Source of the DNA: Pseudanabaena sp. lw0831
GTDB taxonomy: Bacteria > Cyanobacteriota > Cyanobacteriia > Pseudanabaenales > Pseudanabaenaceae
Length of the DNA: 64,000 nucleotides
Direction of reading: 5' to 3'
NCBI RefSeq assembly: GCF_016584665.1
Contig: NZ_BBJB01000108.1
Span: 1-64,000, forward strand
Every line of letters begins with the position of its first letter. Position 1 is the stretch's first letter. The position numbers and the translations under genes are program-made. A model generated the notes under the pieces. It was not told where the DNA came from. It made no database searches and saw nothing but the letters and a program-made list of their open reading frames with translations. Shown here in pieces: positions 16,723-23,420 of this stretch.

Positions 16723-16752
16723 AAAAAAAGGAGCGCGAAGCGCTCTTTTTTT
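16723..16752 (-). terminator. Terminator of the amino-acid-binding protein gene
   Basis: Stem GGAGCGC/GCGCTCx with A7 and T7 on the two sides, so it can end transcripts from either direction. It overlaps the stop codon of the minus-strand gene by two bases. Confidence 0.75.
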
Positions 16753-17884
16753 ATCGAAATGGTGGTGCGTACATTAATCCGCCATTTTTCCAGAGTTCAT
16801 TTTGTCCGCGTGGCAATTTGAATGGACTATCTTTGCCAAGATTGCGATCGTAAATTTCGGCATAATTCCCAACATGCTTAACCACTCGCGCTGTGAAGTC
16901 ATTGGCGATGCCCATATCTTTACCCAAACTGCCATCAACTCCTAGAAATCTACGAATTTCTGCATTTTTACTTTGTAATTGAGTCGTGAGATTCGTCGAA
17001 GAAATATCTAAATCTTCCGCCTCGATCGCAGAAAATATTATCCACTTGACAATATCTGACCACTTCGAGTCTCCATCACCAACCGCAGGGGCTAGCGGCT
17101 CCTTTGAAATCACAAAATCTAAAACTACATGATTTTCAGGATCAGCAAGTCGGGTACGACGTACTACCAGCGCAGAGCGATCGGCGGTAATCGCCGCACA
17201 ACGACCCGATTGGTAAGCTGCAAAAGTAGCATTCACATCTTCATAAACTACAGGCTTATAGGCAAGATTACGCTTACGCATTTGATCAGCGAGATTTTGC
17301 TCTGTCGTTGTCCCAGTTTGGGCGCAAATATCGGCATCCTTAAGATCTGCGATCGCCTTAATATTGCTGTCCTTTCTCACCATTACGCCCTGACCGTCAT
17401 AAAAAACTACGGGCATAAAGGCAAGACGAGAGGCTGTATCTCGGCTTAATGTCCATGTCGTATTACGACTAAGTACATCGATTTCGCCAGACTGTAAAGC
17501 TGTAAAACGCTCCTTAGCATTAAGGTTGCGAAACTGAACAGCTTCAGGATTGTCAAATATCGCCGATGCGATCGCCCGACAAATATCGACATCCAGCCCC
17601 GAATATTTGCCCTCTTTGTTTACAAAGCTAAATCCTGGTAGCTCGCCACTGACACCGCAAACTAGTTTGCCGCGACTAAGTACATTTTTGAGACGATTGG
17701 TACTGCCAACTGTGGCTTGATTTGGCTCTGGGATTGGCTCACAGGCAGCTAGCGCGAAGAGACATAAACCTGCTAATAACAAAGCGATCGCCTTTTGCCA
17801 GAATGCGCTATGAATTAGCCTATTCAGAAACTTTTTCCAGAAGTGCCAGAGACCTTGATTAGGCGATCGCTTTTGATAATGCAT
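16751..17884 (-). CDS. Amino-acid ABC transporter substrate-binding lipoprotein
   Basis: A 377-residue periplasmic binding protein of the general L-amino-acid type (AapJ/BztA family). A basic N-terminus and TM segment lead to the lipobox LAAC with C48 as the lipidated residue. The mature part has the bilobed fold signatures GVSGELPGFSFV, GLDVDICRAIASAIF, ALQSGEIDVLSRNTTW and ADICAQTGTTTEQN, followed by the family-specific C-terminal FLGVDGSLGKDMGI segment. Permease and ATPase genes are not nearby. The leader before the lipobox is long (about 30 residues), so a later start is possible. Confidence 0.92.
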   Translation of the reverse strand: MHYQKRSPNQGLWHFWKKFLNRLIHSAFWQKAIALLLAGLCLFALAACEPIPEPNQATVGSTNRLKNVLSRGKLVCGVSGELPGFSFVNKEGKYSGLDVDICRAIASAIFDNPEAVQFRNLNAKERFTALQSGEIDVLSRNTTWTLSRDTASRLAFMPVVFYDGQGVMVRKDSNIKAIADLKDADICAQTGTTTEQNLADQMRKRNLAYKPVVYEDVNATFAAYQSGRCAAITADRSALVVRRTRLADPENHVVLDFVISKEPLAPAVGDGDSKWSDIVKWIIFSAIEAEDLDISSTNLTTQLQSKNAEIRRFLGVDGSLGKDMGIANDFTARVVKHVGNYAEIYDRNLGKDSPFKLPRGQNELWKNGGLMYAPPFR

Positions 17885-17899
17885 GAATGTTTTTTAGAT

Positions 17900-17939
17900 G
17901 CTTTTTTGAATGCATTATAGCGGCTTGTCCAAAAATCCA
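17900..17939. repeat. 40-bp direct repeat, left copy
   Basis: Begins GCTTTTTTGAATGCATTA and matches 21710-21749 at 37 of 40 positions. It lies just upstream of the amino-acid-binding protein gene. The two copies bracket the IS and amidase block. Confidence 0.85.
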
Positions 17940-18087
17940 AATAAAAAGACTGAGAATATTGCGATCGCGTGATTGTTGAAATTGTTAGCGATCTCTCACT
18001 CGATCCAGCAATTTCCGAGGTGGCGGCTCAGTTTGTATAATGAAATTATAAAGTAAATAATCTGAATAATACATTTTATTGTCGGAC

Positions 18088-18166
18088 TAACACGCTATTT
18101 GGGCGATTAGCCAGAATTTTTCTGTCTAACATCCCGTACAGGGCAAATAGCCAGAATTTTTCTGCC
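18088..18166. repeat. 39-40-bp tandem repeats interrupted by an IS
   Basis: Two units begin at TAA 18088 and TAA 18127. Each runs TAACAYSC..., a GG-containing palindrome-like CCCGTAYAGGG segment, ATTAGCC/AATAGCC, then CAGAATTTTTCTG. A third, more diverged unit continues after the IS at 19495-19540. The IS therefore inserted inside the array. Confidence 0.75.
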
Positions 18167-18188
18167 TAAGGGACTTCCAGATAAAAAA

Positions 18189-18941
18189 TCATTCCAGTTT
18201 TAATGTTGGTACGTACAAAATATCGACAAACCATTTGCCAAGGTCTAATTGTTTACCATTAACCTCTAGATATGTCATTCTTTGAATCTGATTTTCTACT
18301 TCAGCCATCGCCTGTTTTGTTAACTTAACCCCTGTTTTGTAGGTTTCGGTTACAAGTTTGACTACAGGATGCACACCTTTCCATGTCATAGTTTGGGCAA
18401 ACTTCACAACGGTGTTAATTTCATCTAAGATGCTGCCATTCCAGTGGTTTTCTAAAATTCCCCAAGTGCGTTCGATGGGATTATACTTACTGTGATAAGG
18501 CGGATAGTAAGCTAATCTCAAATTCAATTGATGAGTTTGGGCAAAATCCACAACTCGCTTCATAAACTGAGTACGGCGGGAATGATTTTCGGGTCCGTTA
18601 TCTTGGTTGAGTAGTAGCGTTTTGACTAATGAAAACCGATGGCGATTCTCTGACCACCAAGCCGCCAACATATCCACAATAAAATCACTGGTTACTTTAG
18701 AGGTTGTAAAATACAGAAATAATTCATCTAATTCTGGTAGAAAGATCCCATAAGGAGTTACCCCTGAACTGGGCTTGAAGTCGTGGTCACAAGCTTGAGT
18801 ATCAACGCGATTTTTGCCATCACGCGAGAAGTTCCCGACCTTAACCACTGCTTTTGCGTCTAATGACAGTCTTAAAATTGTCGGGTCTGCTTCTGCTTTT
18901 TCATTCTCAATCGCAAGTTGGTCAAAAATAGCATCGGTCAT
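18189..18941 (-). CDS. ISAzo13 transposase, catalytic part (ORF B)
   Basis: A 250-residue DDE transposase domain of the family also called Rhodopirellula-type transposase. Acidic residues are visible in LSLDAKAVVKVG (first Asp), LLLNQDNGPENHSRR (second Asp) and HSKYNPIERTWG (Glu), so the triad looks intact. Its ATG overlaps the ORF A stop by 4 bp (ATGA), and an A8 tract just upstream would allow a -1 frameshift to make a fusion of about 410 residues, the usual size for the family. Confidence 0.9.
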   Translation of the reverse strand: MTDAIFDQLAIENEKAEADPTILRLSLDAKAVVKVGNFSRDGKNRVDTQACDHDFKPSSGVTPYGIFLPELDELFLYFTTSKVTSDFIVDMLAAWWSENRHRFSLVKTLLLNQDNGPENHSRRTQFMKRVVDFAQTHQLNLRLAYYPPYHSKYNPIERTWGILENHWNGSILDEINTVVKFAQTMTWKGVHPVVKLVTETYKTGVKLTKQAMAEVENQIQRMTYLEVNGKQLDLGKWFVDILYVPTLKLE

Positions 18942-19429
18942 GGCAATTTTTTTTGAGGTTTTGTTTTACCAACTTTACTTGGGAAATACCCTAGCCGATT
19001 CAACCGAGTACGAATCGTTTCTGCACTGGGTAATTCTTCGGTACTGTAGCCTTTTTGAGCAATCAATTGTCGCCGAACTTCGGCTGCACTCAGGCGAGTA
19101 TACAGTCGGTTAGTTTGGAATTTCGGATCTGTTTGGCTTTGACCATCTACCAAACTCTTGATGTCGGTTAGCAAGTTGGGTAATCGTTCTTCTGTCGATT
19201 TTCTTCCTCGTAGATTAAAAGCATCCACACAGATAATTCCACTCTCTACCTCTCGCTTGCCTTTGCGGATGAGATTTCGATCCCAACCTAACTCTCTTTC
19301 TGCTAGTCTCTGCCCTCCTTTACCTAGTTCTTTTACGGTTTGGGCGATGTATCGTCGATGCTCACTACCTTTTAGCTGTTTTGCTGTTTCTTGAAATAGT
19401 GTCTTGAGCGAGTCTGTAAGTTTTATCAC
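18938..19429 (-). CDS. ISAzo13 transposase, N-terminal DNA-binding part (ORF A)
   Basis: A 163-residue frame with the family's helix-turn-helix region (LAERELGWDRNLIRKGKREVESG) and a second DNA-binding helix near TRLSAAEVRRQLIAQKGYS. It ends KTKPQKKLP at the A8 slippery tract at 18947-18954 (plus-strand T8). Alone it lacks any catalytic residue. Expression of an active enzyme presumably needs frameshifting or coupled translation of ORF B. Confidence 0.85.
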   Translation of the reverse strand: MIKLTDSLKTLFQETAKQLKGSEHRRYIAQTVKELGKGGQRLAERELGWDRNLIRKGKREVESGIICVDAFNLRGRKSTEERLPNLLTDIKSLVDGQSQTDPKFQTNRLYTRLSAAEVRRQLIAQKGYSTEELPSAETIRTRLNRLGYFPSKVGKTKPQKKLP

Positions 19430-19497
19430 TTTATGTTAAATATGTTTAGTATCCCATAAAGTGCTTTTGGATTTATTTATTTCTTGCAAGTCCCTAA

Positions 19498-19929
19498 CAC
19501 CCCGTATAGGGTGATTAGCCCGAAACTTGACATTCAGGCTATATCGCTTATAGTCGTACTAGACAGAAAATTTCCGTCTAATACATAGTTATGCGGCTAA
19601 ATTCTTAGCATGAGCGGAGCCTGAAAACGTCCCAAGATTGCTAGATTTCTGCTCAACCTTCTCCTTGCTTCGATTTCATAAAGTCATTCAATTTCTTTAG
19701 CTCAAGGAGTAAAGTTGACTGACTACATCGACTAAAAAAAATCTGCATCCAAGCACTTAAATAATGGACCGTATACTTCGTTACAGATTAAAGTTAGATA
19801 CCTGTTTTAAACATACACATCTAGATACAATTGGTAATAATAAGGAATAAATTTATAATATAAGAAACTCGAACAGAAAGAGATTATTATTATCAAATCA
19901 TTAGCTTTTAATTCAATGCTATTAAATTT
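19498..19929. other. Gene-free region between IS and amidase
   Basis: Contains the tail of the interrupted tandem repeat and a short inverted repeat TAGACAGAAAATTTCCGTCTA near 19569-19589. The rest is AT-rich with no frame I can support. HIP1 is absent. Confidence 0.5.
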
Positions 19930-21399
19930 ATGACACAAGACAATATTTTATTTCTGTCTGCCACTGAAATAGCAAATAAAATCAGGAACAAGGAAGTTAC
20001 TTCATATGAAGTTGTGTCAACTTATCTACAGCAAATAGAAGAACAAAACGGCATCTTTAATGCAGTGGTATTAATTGACAAGGAAAATGCCTTACGCCAA
20101 GCAAAATTAGCGGATGAAGCAATTAAAAGTGCTAATAATTGGGGTAAATTGCATGGTGTCCCTATTACGATTAAGGATAATTATTTGACACAGGGACTGA
20201 CAACTACATCGGGATATGAACCGTTGAGAAACCATATCCCGACAAAAGATGCTGAACTTGTAAAACTTCTCAAGTCAGAAGGTGCCATTACTATAGGTAA
20301 AACTAATTTATCGGTTTTAGCTATGGATATGCAGACTGATAATGCTATTTTCGGAAAAACGAATAATGCTTGGGATATTAATAGAACCAGTGGAGGGAGT
20401 AGTGGTGGTTGTGCGGTAGCACTTGCAACAGGTATGATTCCTTTATCATTCGGGAACGATTTGGCAGGGTCTATTAGAATTCCGTCAGCATATTGCGGAG
20501 TATATGGCTTTAAACCAACATTTGGAGTTGTGTCAGTTAATGGTATTCAAACTGACCCTAAAGAACTTGTTAATGGTCTCAAGTCATTGGCGGTTGCAGG
20601 ACCACTAGCGAGAACTATTGAAGATTTGCAGTTAGCGATGGATGTAATCGCTCAGACTACCGATACCGATAAAAAACTAATACCAATAAACAGATGTAAG
20701 GACACTGTTGATATAAAGAATTTAAAAATTGGATGGACTGATGAGTTTGGTAATGTTCCCGTTGATAATGAAATCAAAAAGGCGATTCAGAATTACATTG
20801 TAAAGTTAGAGAAATCAGGTGCTACTGTTGTTGAAATCGCTCCACCAATTGACTTTCACTTGGCATGGAAAACATGGGGAAGTTTTGTAGGTATGCAGGG
20901 TGGTTACAGTACTCCAAATTTTCTAAAATGGATAGGGCTTCCATTTATAAAAGGAGTATTAAAAAATGTGCCAATGCATCAGAACGTTGTAAAACCAACG
21001 TCGGTGAAAAAATATATGGAAGCATTAAACATACAGGAATCGTTAATTACTCAGATGGAGAATTTCTTAGACGATTTTGATGTATTTATTTGTCCAGCAA
21101 GCTCTGTAAATGCATTCCCACATCATAAACCAACTAAAAAGTTAGGTGATTTTAATATTTACAATAATTCGATAGAAGTAAATAATGAGCTAATTCATTA
21201 TTATATGGCAACACAAGCGTATACTACGCCGTTTACATTAACAGAAAATCCTGTTTTGAGTATGCCAATTTCACTCAGTAAAGATTCATTACCTATCGGT
21301 GTTCAGGTAATTGGTAAACGGTATTCAGACTTCAGACTTCTGAAAATTGGAATTGTATTAGATGGCTATTCTGAAAAGTTTGAATATCCATTAGAATAA
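19930..21399 (+). CDS. Amidase (amidase-signature family)
   Basis: A 489-residue hydrolase of carboxamides; the natural substrate is not predictable. The Ser-cisSer-Lys triad is in place: Lys in PITIKDN (about residue 83), the glycine-rich GGSSGGCAVALATG with the cis-Ser, and the nucleophile Ser in GNDLAGSIRIPSAYCG. Length is normal. The base composition is markedly AT-rich and no GCGATCGC occurs in the gene, unlike neighbouring genes, which suggests horizontal acquisition. It stands alone between the IS and the right direct repeat. A GatA role is unlikely because length and context differ. Confidence 0.9.
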   Translation: MTQDNILFLSATEIANKIRNKEVTSYEVVSTYLQQIEEQNGIFNAVVLIDKENALRQAKLADEAIKSANNWGKLHGVPITIKDNYLTQGLTTTSGYEPLRNHIPTKDAELVKLLKSEGAITIGKTNLSVLAMDMQTDNAIFGKTNNAWDINRTSGGSSGGCAVALATGMIPLSFGNDLAGSIRIPSAYCGVYGFKPTFGVVSVNGIQTDPKELVNGLKSLAVAGPLARTIEDLQLAMDVIAQTTDTDKKLIPINRCKDTVDIKNLKIGWTDEFGNVPVDNEIKKAIQNYIVKLEKSGATVVEIAPPIDFHLAWKTWGSFVGMQGGYSTPNFLKWIGLPFIKGVLKNVPMHQNVVKPTSVKKYMEALNIQESLITQMENFLDDFDVFICPASSVNAFPHHKPTKKLGDFNIYNNSIEVNNELIHYYMATQAYTTPFTLTENPVLSMPISLSKDSLPIGVQVIGKRYSDFRLLKIGIVLDGYSEKFEYPLE

Positions 21400-21479
21400 G
21401 TTGTAATGGAGATATGCTAGAAAATATTGCTTTCATCATTTCTCAGTTTCTCAAATAATCGGATGAATTATCGGAAAAA

Positions 21480-21706
21480 CATTTTTTGGTATACCAAACC
21501 GAAACGCCCGTTGAGGTTATCTATTTCTCTCCGAAATTAAGCACTCAAAAATGATTTGCTTCGTTGATGAGTTCCGAGAAGTTATTGGCGATCTCAAAGA
21601 CAAATAGTTGATAAGAGATCGGGGCATAACACATCATTGGAGCGGACAAAAGCGTGATATTTTAGTTGAGAGCAAGGGTTTTCTTGCCGCTCAATTAAGC
21701 CGTTAG
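21480..21706 (+). pseudogene. Decayed coding remnant, family unknown
   Basis: Two consecutive frames look translated: one reading VYQTETPVEVIYFSPKLSTQK and ending at TGA 21552, and a +2/-1 shifted one from ATG 21551 (MICFVDEFREVIGDLKDK), interrupted by TAG at 21605 and resuming as an open stretch ending at TAG 21704. The composition is less AT-biased than flanking DNA. I do not recognise the parent gene. Confidence 0.35.
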
Positions 21707-21709
21707 ACT

Positions 21710-21749
21710 GCTTTTTTGAATGAATTATAGCGGCTTGTCAAAAATTCCA
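21710..21749. repeat. 40-bp direct repeat, right copy
   Basis: Second copy of the repeat at 17900-17939 (three mismatches). It sits just downstream of cysE, so the two copies mark the edges of the inserted block. Confidence 0.85.
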
Positions 21750-21750
21750 T

Positions 21751-21779
21751 AAAAAAGGCTCGCGTTGCGAGCCTTTTTT
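21751..21779 (-). terminator. cysE terminator
   Basis: Stem AAAAAAGGCTCGC/GCGAGCCTTTTTT with a GTT loop, immediately behind the cysE stop. Classical GC stem with T-run on both strands. Confidence 0.85.
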
Positions 21780-21780
21780 A

Positions 21781-22557
21781 TTAAATACCACCGCCTTCAG
21801 AAAAACCTTCATATTCTGGAGGATGTTCAAAACGATCAGTACGATCGCATGGCGTAAGGTGGCGAGGGCGGACATTCTTGAGCAACTCTGAATCAATAAT
21901 GTAGTTGTTAATGGGATGTAAGGTATTAGCCTCAGCATGTCTCTCCAACTGCTCAACGCGACCAATAAGCGATCGGATGACATCGCCTTCAGGATCGGGA
22001 ACCTGAAAGTGATCGAGAGCGGAAACCTTTACGCCATGACGATGCACAATCCGCCCAGGAATACCAACCACAGTGCAATCGGGAGGAACGCATTTCAAAA
22101 CGACGGAGCCAGCACCAATCCGCGAATTGCTACCAATTTCAATATTGCCTAAGACCTTTGCGCCAGCGCCGATGACAACGTTATCGCCAAGGGTAGGGTG
22201 ACGCTTGCCCGATTGTTTGCCAGTACCACCAAGGGTGACACCTTGATAAATCAATACATATTCACCAACGATCGCAGTTTCACCAATTACCACGCCCATA
22301 CCGTGATCGATAAATGCACCCATGCCAATTCTCGCGCCTGGGTGAATCTCGATGCCCGTTAGGAATCTAGCAAATTGCGAGATCATACGGGGAATCACGG
22401 GTAACTTAAGAGTGTGCAGCCAATGAGCAAAGCGATATAAGACGATCGCATGGAGTCCTGGGTAGCATAACAGCACTTCTAGCCAGTTACGCGCAGCAGG
22501 ATCGCGTTCAAAAATGATTGCGAAGTCAGCTCGCAGTGTTTTGATAATATTTTTCAA
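21781..22557 (-). CDS. cysE: Serine O-acetyltransferase
   Basis: A 258-residue enzyme making O-acetylserine from serine and acetyl-CoA, the first step of cysteine synthesis. The short helical N-terminus ([16 protein letters not shown]) is followed by left-handed beta-helix hexapeptides: [24 protein letters not shown] with the catalytic Asp-His pair, and the [28 protein letters not shown] block. This is the short bacterial/cyanobacterial SrpH/NifP-like form. The C-terminal 40 residues are less conserved. Feedback control by cysteine is usual in the family but cannot be seen here. Confidence 0.95.
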
Positions 22558-22695
22558 CGGTTTTAAAACCCTTTTTTAAATGCTACTGCTGATTTTAAGA
22601 TCCTAACGGATGCTTTGTATCAAAAGTAACTACCCTTTGGAGTGAGTATTTGTTGAAGTATTGTGAAGTAACTCCTTTATTTTCTAATTAGCTTA

Positions 22696-22785
22696 GATCA
22701 AACGAAGCGCACAATTCCTTGAAAGAGCTGCTTTGCAACACTCTCAAGGAATTGTACGCTTCGAGTTTAAGCGCAAAGCGTTATA
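22696..22785. repeat. Palindromic element upstream of cysE
   Basis: Inverted arms CGAAGCG..CAATTCCTTGA and complement around AGAGCTGCTTTGCAACACTCT, followed by the GCGCAAAGCGTTATAG end shared with other dispersed elements. It lies between the esterase stop and the cysE start. Confidence 0.6.
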
Positions 22786-22787
22786 GT

Positions 22788-23420
22788 TCAAAAACCACAA
22801 TAATGCTTGATGTTTTGCCAAATGCTTTCTAAATCTTTTCCAAGAGCATGGTCATCGTCTAGTAGTTTTAAAGTAACTTGCGATCGCCTTTTAGCAAACT
22901 CTTCACTGAGAGATGCTGGCACAACATCATCATGAATGCCATGAAAGATAAGAATAGGTAGCGATCGCGTAAGCTTTTCTTCTGAATAATTCTTGGCATC
23001 AACAAAAAATTGAAATTGTAAATTTACATTACGCTTCAGCCCGTAATGATAAAACTCGCGAATATCATCTTGTTGCCATTTAGTAACATTCTCTTCACCT
23101 AAGGCTTTGGCAATTCTCTGACTAAATCCAAAAGCAGGGGCAAACAAAACTAGTTTTTGGACTTGTGTTTTTTTGGCGGCAAGTTGCACAGCTAAAAATC
23201 CACCAAGGCTAGAACCAATCACCACAAGTGGTTCGCTGTTATGGAGATAAGTGCGATCGAGATACGCTAATTGATCTGAGAGGGTCGTGGTTGAGAAATC
23301 TGTGAGATTTAAGTCTGGAATATGCAACGTTAGCCCGATGTCAGTAAACCTTTGTCTCATGTACTGCGCCTTGTAAGAGTTGGGACTAGACGCAAAGCCA
23401 TGTAAATAGAGATATTTCAT
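22788..23420 (-). CDS. YqiA/YcfP-type alpha/beta-hydrolase
   Basis: A 210-residue small esterase-like hydrolase. Seen: the opening YLHGFASSPNSYKA oxyanion segment, the nucleophile elbow GSSLGG near residue 73, an acid in the HGIHDDVVP loop and a final His in DDDHALGKD. That is a complete Ser-Asp-His triad. Family members hydrolyse short acyl esters in vitro; the physiological substrate is unknown. Single gene on the minus strand, ended by the element at 22696-22785. Confidence 0.88.
   Translation of the reverse strand: MKYLYLHGFASSPNSYKAQYMRQRFTDIGLTLHIPDLNLTDFSTTTLSDQLAYLDRTYLHNSEPLVVIGSSLGGFLAVQLAAKKTQVQKLVLFAPAFGFSQRIAKALGEENVTKWQQDDIREFYHYGLKRNVNLQFQFFVDAKNYSEEKLTRSLPILIFHGIHDDVVPASLSEEFAKRRSQVTLKLLDDDHALGKDLESIWQNIKHYCGF

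Follow-up and report, generated by a model that had tools for sequence, protein, structure and literature searches.

Among described systems, the sedentary chromosomal integron at ilvD of Xanthomonas occupies one ancestral site and carries species-specific cassettes; many of its intI genes have been inactivated or deleted, leaving the cassette arrays behind (PMC12444791, in the accessible part of that paper). Within the Cyanobacteria, integrons with intI and attC are known at the level of the phylum, and an attC model is among what has been reported (PMC9668308, PMC8352920, PMC8618304, PMC2426708, PMC9176274); as far as their accessible text goes, these reports hold no genus-level account of Pseudanabaena or of the site considered here. 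Titles and opening lines of abstracts likewise revealed no publication on Pseudanabaena integrons, most subscription journals lying outside the scope of that search. Here, 64,000 nucleotides of Pseudanabaena sp. lw0831 (contig NZ_BBJB01000108.1, positions 1 to 64,000; "the window") were analyzed, in which a block bounded by two direct repeats lies between a gene for an extracellular solute-binding protein (SBP) and cysE. We are highly confident that this block is a decayed sedentary chromosomal integron with one amidase cassette; the order of its parts, its boundaries, its decay, and the corresponding empty sites can be read directly from the genomes compared. It resembles the Xanthomonas ilvD integron in its single ancestral site, its varying cassettes, and the decay of intI, and the phylum-level cyanobacterial integrons in combining intI with attC. 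Unlike in Xanthomonas, for which the accessible part of the report tells of no flank duplication (PMC12444791), a promoter segment is doubled around the Pseudanabaena integron, and one species has seemingly lost the element through it. The kind of integron is already known; the flank duplication is unusual.

In the window, the cassette begins with TTATGC directly after the attI crossover at G 19588 and closes with an attC site whose first bases, GCATAAC, are the exact reverse complement of GTTATGC (Table 1); the sites at which the element itself recombines would be these two, attI and attC. When 20 attC sites are aligned, 90.1% of the cells pair, compared with 79.3% after shuffling, and the cells changed on both sides number 38, compared with 13.8. 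A held-out covariance model (R2; 18 sites, that of the window excluded) recovered the window attC with 64.6 bits (E 3.2e-14) and had no second match in the window at E ≤ 5; with the first attC model, 13 sites were found in the whole genome at E < 1e-3, that of the window among them. The amidase encoded by the cassette does not reach the cut-off of any of the 25 NCBIfam models shown, and its gene is AT-rich (GC 0.358, compared with 0.416 for the window). Upstream of it, the attI region has an end motif (TAATACATAG/TT, after which the cassette starts) that was found at 15 loci, and the promoter layout TTGAC[AT]-16-TATA[GT]T is present in the attI region at all 15 loci compared; the amidase may be expressed from this conserved promoter. 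Among the attI repeats, an insertion sequence (IS) has inserted, which belongs to the ISAzo13 family as judged by its DDE transposase, its GGGACTT terminal inverted repeats, and the duplication of its TAA target, irrespective of the fact that the larger of its open reading frames (ORFs) scores just below the cut-off of the NCBIfam ISAzo13 model (191.1 compared with 200 bits). An earlier note on this DNA, made from its letters without database searches, had already placed an IS and an amidase between the repeats, and Pfam matches bear out both.

Three parts of the block, namely the stub of intI, the attI region, and the 3′ portion of the cassette, correspond to what the earlier note called decayed coding remnants. 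The stub matches the IntI of one relative (G010, see below) over 16 residues (tblastn, 87.5% identity, E 0.003) and lies in the syntenic place. It is joined to the old 3′ end of intI at GATCGC; this hexamer flanks the part of intI that is missing from the window at both ends in relative G005, and in G010 the 3′ end reads GATCGC and the 5′ end GATTGC. The window copy thus has no functional intI in cis, only a stub of 17 codons without ATG, and is an intI-less integron remnant. The statement of the earlier note that no integrase is present holds insofar as the block has no intact intI; this absence is, however, the result of decay, since the stub remains and two relatives have the whole intI at this site.

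A search with the left edge in 38 genomes, that of the window included, gave matches in 23, all of which belong to the genus Pseudanabaena. The relatives are referred to by numbers that we matched to strains as follows: G008, sp. UWO311; G012, Phormidium tenue FACHB-1050; G005, sp. SR411; G014, P. frigida ULC066bin1; and G010, isolate ULC068bin1. Stretches were obtained from 20 relatives; all 20 contain the SBP gene and 11 contain cysE as well, the other nine stretches not reaching as far as cysE. Six of these 11 (G017, G010, G014, G019, G012, and G022) have an occupied site, with 0.9–10 kb between the two genes and the repeat at both edges. The other five (G008, G003, G002, G020, and G021) have an empty site, in which the genes are 87, 180, 116, 116, and 115 bp apart, respectively (start and stop letters included), and in which a single copy of the repeat is found (diverged in G003). 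This is the empty site that the earlier note had predicted for an inserted block with duplicated edges, and both the insertion and the duplication are thereby borne out.

Beside the SBP gene, intI is complete in G010 and G005 (454 and 471 bits, respectively, with model TIGR02249; cut-off 265) and in pieces in G014, G017, G019, G012, G022, and the window. Matches to TIGR02249 above the cut-off, anywhere in the genome, were found in 13 of 26 genomes of the genus compared with none of 14 control genomes. The cassette genes at the site differ among the six occupied relatives, one being shared by G012 and G022 only; a cassette of G010 carries what we read, without a family search, as a BrnT/BrnA-like pair. 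Taken over the genus, the site has an IntI-family gene, an attI next to it, and cassettes with attC that are recognized by closure, covariation, and model matches. A Pseudanabaena clade has an integron between the SBP gene and cysE, with intI pointing leftward, followed by attI, cassettes pointing rightward, and a last attC. For finding attC, a pattern scanner proved unspecific (16 matches on one strand and 20 on the other at threshold 10) and was replaced by cassette closure and the covariance model. The scan for cassette chains overran the true end of the array in the window and in some relatives, where the later "cassettes" were discarded, and missed the attC of G017 and G022.

Table 1. The integron block of the window, its parts, and its flanks (., no strand assigned; L063, locus used for comparison).
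Feature	Position	Strand	Evidence and remarks
SBP gene, extracellular solute-binding protein family 3 (amino-acid ABC transporter type), left flank	16751..17884	-	Pfam SBP_bac_3; in 20/20 relatives fetched
Left repeat copy	17894..17946	.	Native, contiguous with SBP gene; minus-strand TATAAT at 17919-17914
GATCGC/GCGATC scar, most of intI missing there	17988..17993	.	Comparison with G005 and G010
intI remnant	17991..18038	-	IQTEPPPRKLLDRVRDR, then stop; 17 codons; start ATG now ATA
attI region	18060..19588	+	Interrupted by the IS; crossover follows G 19588; compared with L063
ISAzo13-family IS, 1,325 bp	18170..19494	-	TAA target duplication, 18167-18169 and 19495-19497; ends set by comparison with L063
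IS transposase, two ORFs	18938-19429, 18189-18941	-	Pfam DDE_Tnp_ISAZ013 over cut-off, both
Cassette promoter (Pc-like), TTGACA-16-TATAGT	19527..19554	+	Same layout in 15/15 loci
Single gene cassette, 2,114 bp	19589..21702	+	Start GTTATGC, exact match to attC R'' GCATAAC
Amidase gene, 489 aa	19930..21399	+	Pfam Amidase, E 2.2e-103
attC site	21624..21708	+	Structure on bottom strand; held-out covariance model
Right repeat copy	21703..21756	.	Start is attC crossover base 21703
cysE terminator	21749..21781	-	Terminator-like site
cysE, serine acetyltransferase, right flank	21781..22557	-	Pfam Hexapep and SATase_N

The 40-bp direct repeats are located where the earlier note had placed them (17900-17939 and 21710-21749) and share 37 of 40 bases. 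Without gaps, the repeat extends over 48 nt (90% identity), and with one gap over ∼54 nt, beginning with TTAGA (88.9%, E 5.5e-12). Good matches in the 5.26-Mb genome are confined to these two places (E 2e-36 and 8e-13; third best, E 0.2); a dispersed repeat is thus ruled out, and the 40-mer does not occur at many other loci, which the earlier note had held would speak against an island. The right copy starts at the crossover base of attC and therefore represents sequence that lies past the last attC. On the side of the SBP gene, the left copy contains a TATAAT 30 bp upstream of the start of that gene; among the aligned copies, this element is intact in all seven left copies compared with five of eight right copies, as expected if the left copy alone serves the SBP gene. 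The repeats are a duplicated native segment carrying the promoter-like element of the SBP gene. That they arose by chance, or from an older promoter duplication unrelated to the block, is hardly credible: no point in support of it was found, the match is far from random in the genome (E 8e-13), the edges agree with those of the element in seven genomes, and the five empty sites have a single copy.

The earlier note had also regarded the duplicated edges as att-like. A native segment doubled at the edges and single at the empty sites would be compatible with attL and attR of a lost integrative element that had its own recombinase and carried the integron as cargo. However, the left copy in each of the six occupied relatives is followed by intI or its stub after a few tens of bases and the right copy directly adjoins an attC; the ORFs of at least 70 aa at these sites include no other recombinase, and no tRNA is located at the site, all of which makes this explanation very improbable. 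Neither a recombinase of its own nor a recognizable att target, as in a genomic island with att sites, was found, and the repeats are to be taken as a duplication of the target, not as demonstrated att sites. No tRNA was found in the window as a whole, and the eight Rfam matches up to E 1 between 15000 and 24000 were all well below the gathering scores.

The block was also described as free of the HIP1 motif, which is not entirely the case: one HIP1 (GCGATCGC) lies inside it, at 17961-17968. The HIP1-free stretch (17969-22879) extends 1.1 kb past the right repeat, over cysE, and is nevertheless the largest gap between HIP1 sites in the window, with 4,919 bases from one start to the next (p = 0.006 if the 123 sites were placed uniformly). 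To the right of cysE, within this stretch, an inverted repeat of 29 nt (22703-22763; 86% complementary, 3-nt loop) was observed.

The left copies of the repeat are 93.5% identical among themselves and the right copies 82.6%, compared with 77.6% between left and right, which suggests one old event. In a tree built from SBP, cysE, and cpcS, G008, whose site is empty, stands beside G017 (support 81), followed by the window (93), within a group of eight genomes with support 99 (a branch support of 100 is also given for its placement). Being empty inside a group that bears the integron, G008 (UWO311) has probably lost the element. Over the 33 columns of its 5′ part, the scar of G008 most closely resembles the left copies of G017 and G019 (93.9%, compared with 78.8–90.9% for right copies); its 3′ part (about 20 columns) is 65–90% identical to right copies and 40–45% to left copies. 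Recombination between the repeats would be the simplest account of the loss. Excision by the integrase at TTAG is disfavored by the left-like 5′ part of the scar, on few columns. In G010, a second duplication is present, which follows one attC and comprises TTAGG, the 40-mer, the terminator, and cysE in its 3′ end only (76 residues, 82% identical). It is followed by different sequence and by the BrnT/A-like cassette and its attC; TTAGG, the 40-mer, and the terminator then recur, this time before intact cysE.

Integrases join integron sites to secondary sites of the GTT type in genomes (PMC10127599, PMC2426708), and such work, as far as the accessible text of these papers goes, is experimental and concerns inversions or single cassette insertions; here, off-target joining is proposed for the flank duplication only. 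The duplication would have arisen once, when the element settled. The attC end may have been joined between the promoter and the start codon of the SBP gene, and the intI end near the terminator of cysE, so that both genes would keep their signals. At the right junction, the integrase may have recombined attC with a secondary site of the TTAG type in the SBP leader. Joining of attC and TTAG, probably between chromosome copies, would yield the left and right copies as well as the second duplication of G010. The array may since have been frozen because its own integrase was lost. Such an integrase would reshape its own address: recombination of attC on one chromosome copy of a presumably polyploid cyanobacterium with the leader site on another would double the promoter of the neighbor, the integron would sit in the leader without silencing it, and homologous recombination between the repeats would let the element leave cleanly, as in UWO311. 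We consider this full sequence of events rather unlikely.

Several observations weigh against the account given so far. Taken alone, what remains of intI in G012 and G022 is weak (15–16 codons, E 0.2 and 0.025) and rests on its position. The one full-length intI in the genome of the window is located on another contig (C55; L108, 9009-9980; 450.7 bits), beside a gene that we read as aroQ; it is 53% identical to the IntI of the SBP site and lacks the attI motif, and an intI cognate to the block was not found in this genome. In all, seven intI loci are without the attI motif, and the promoter scan overall performed no better than chance (13 compared with 12.6). As to the loss in G008, G014, which is occupied, and G016, whose site is decayed, stand outside the group of eight genomes, at poorly supported nodes, and the typing of the scar as left and right relies on few columns (33 and about 20), the right copy of G014 reaching 90.9% in the 5′ part compared with 93.9% for the best left copies. 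As to an origin of the duplication by integrase, the instances amount to one ancestral event and the second duplication in G010. A general rule that these integrons double their flanks with attC at the edge found no support: at 18 intI loci other than the SBP site, compared for direct repeats with the sequence to the right of intI as far as the fetched stretches reach, three had matches, none of them with attC at the edge. These three are uvrC in G011 (right edge not at attC), a locus in G001 (short dispersed intergenic repeats), and one locus in G040.

Since the other loci follow no such rule, ordinary recombination is a serious rival. The integron would then be real and its flank duplicated without the integrase, by illegitimate or homologous recombination, e.g., with a piece of circular or foreign DNA that bore the SBP promoter region, or by template switching; we would give this an even chance. 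Duplicated flanks without attC at the edge do occur in the same genus, at the uvrC site of G011 (152 bp, 87.5%) and at the aroQ site of G008; at the radA site of G014, G000, and G011, a duplication of ∼145–220 bp is present and attC was not found. G040 has a repeat of 880 bp (99.9%; flank, a piece of intI, and attI), one edge of which is the attI crossover, and the other is not at attC. What speaks for the integrase, in turn, is that the right junction of the SBP site is exactly the attC crossover, and that G010 repeats the junction TTAGG a second time, after another attC. Eight of nine other intI sites were compared with relatives lacking intI there, and the right junction was not located within the stretches compared, which is a weak test. 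Sequence that follows a listed attC recurs without a listed attC before it at the SBP site (seven genomes) and at loci L111, L112, L124, L118, and L228; that of L112 and L124 represents cassette copies after attI or a GTTATGC end, that of L111 follows the G of attI, and the identities for L118 and L228 are 84% and 73%, respectively.

Some further observations were made at the other intI loci and insertion sites. The 880-bp copies of G040 (L112, 7484-8363 and 9418-10297) enclose a gene-bearing stretch of 1,054 bp. The 5′ end of radA is duplicated around a short insert (L208, L209, and L210), which makes it another insertion hotspot with a doubled flank. G040, a Pseudanabaena genome, also has 70 attC matches, many of them at 3.49–3.53 Mb, and thus a large cyanobacterial integron; at L111 (G040 C1:3524900-3544800), a complete intI (3,533,942-3,534,883) lies by at least 15 closed cassettes, the chain reaching the end of the stretch. 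G030 and G037, cyanobacteria of the same class and other families, each have 34 matches to attC (E ≤ 0.001), which are dispersed over numerous contigs. The region of the intI stop shares CATCTA/GCGATC or close variants at unrelated flanks (L110, L113, L115, L117, L119, L121, L109, and L125), as if the left end were fixed.

How chromosomal integrons reach and leave their sites without a transposon is poorly explained. In Pseudanabaena, one orthologous site is found intact, decayed, broken by an IS, and empty, and other intI sites exist besides, which makes entry, decay, and exit directly comparable. The decayed integron of the window also illustrates that what is taken for an "island without integrase" can be the remnant of an integron, overlooked by ordinary gene annotation.

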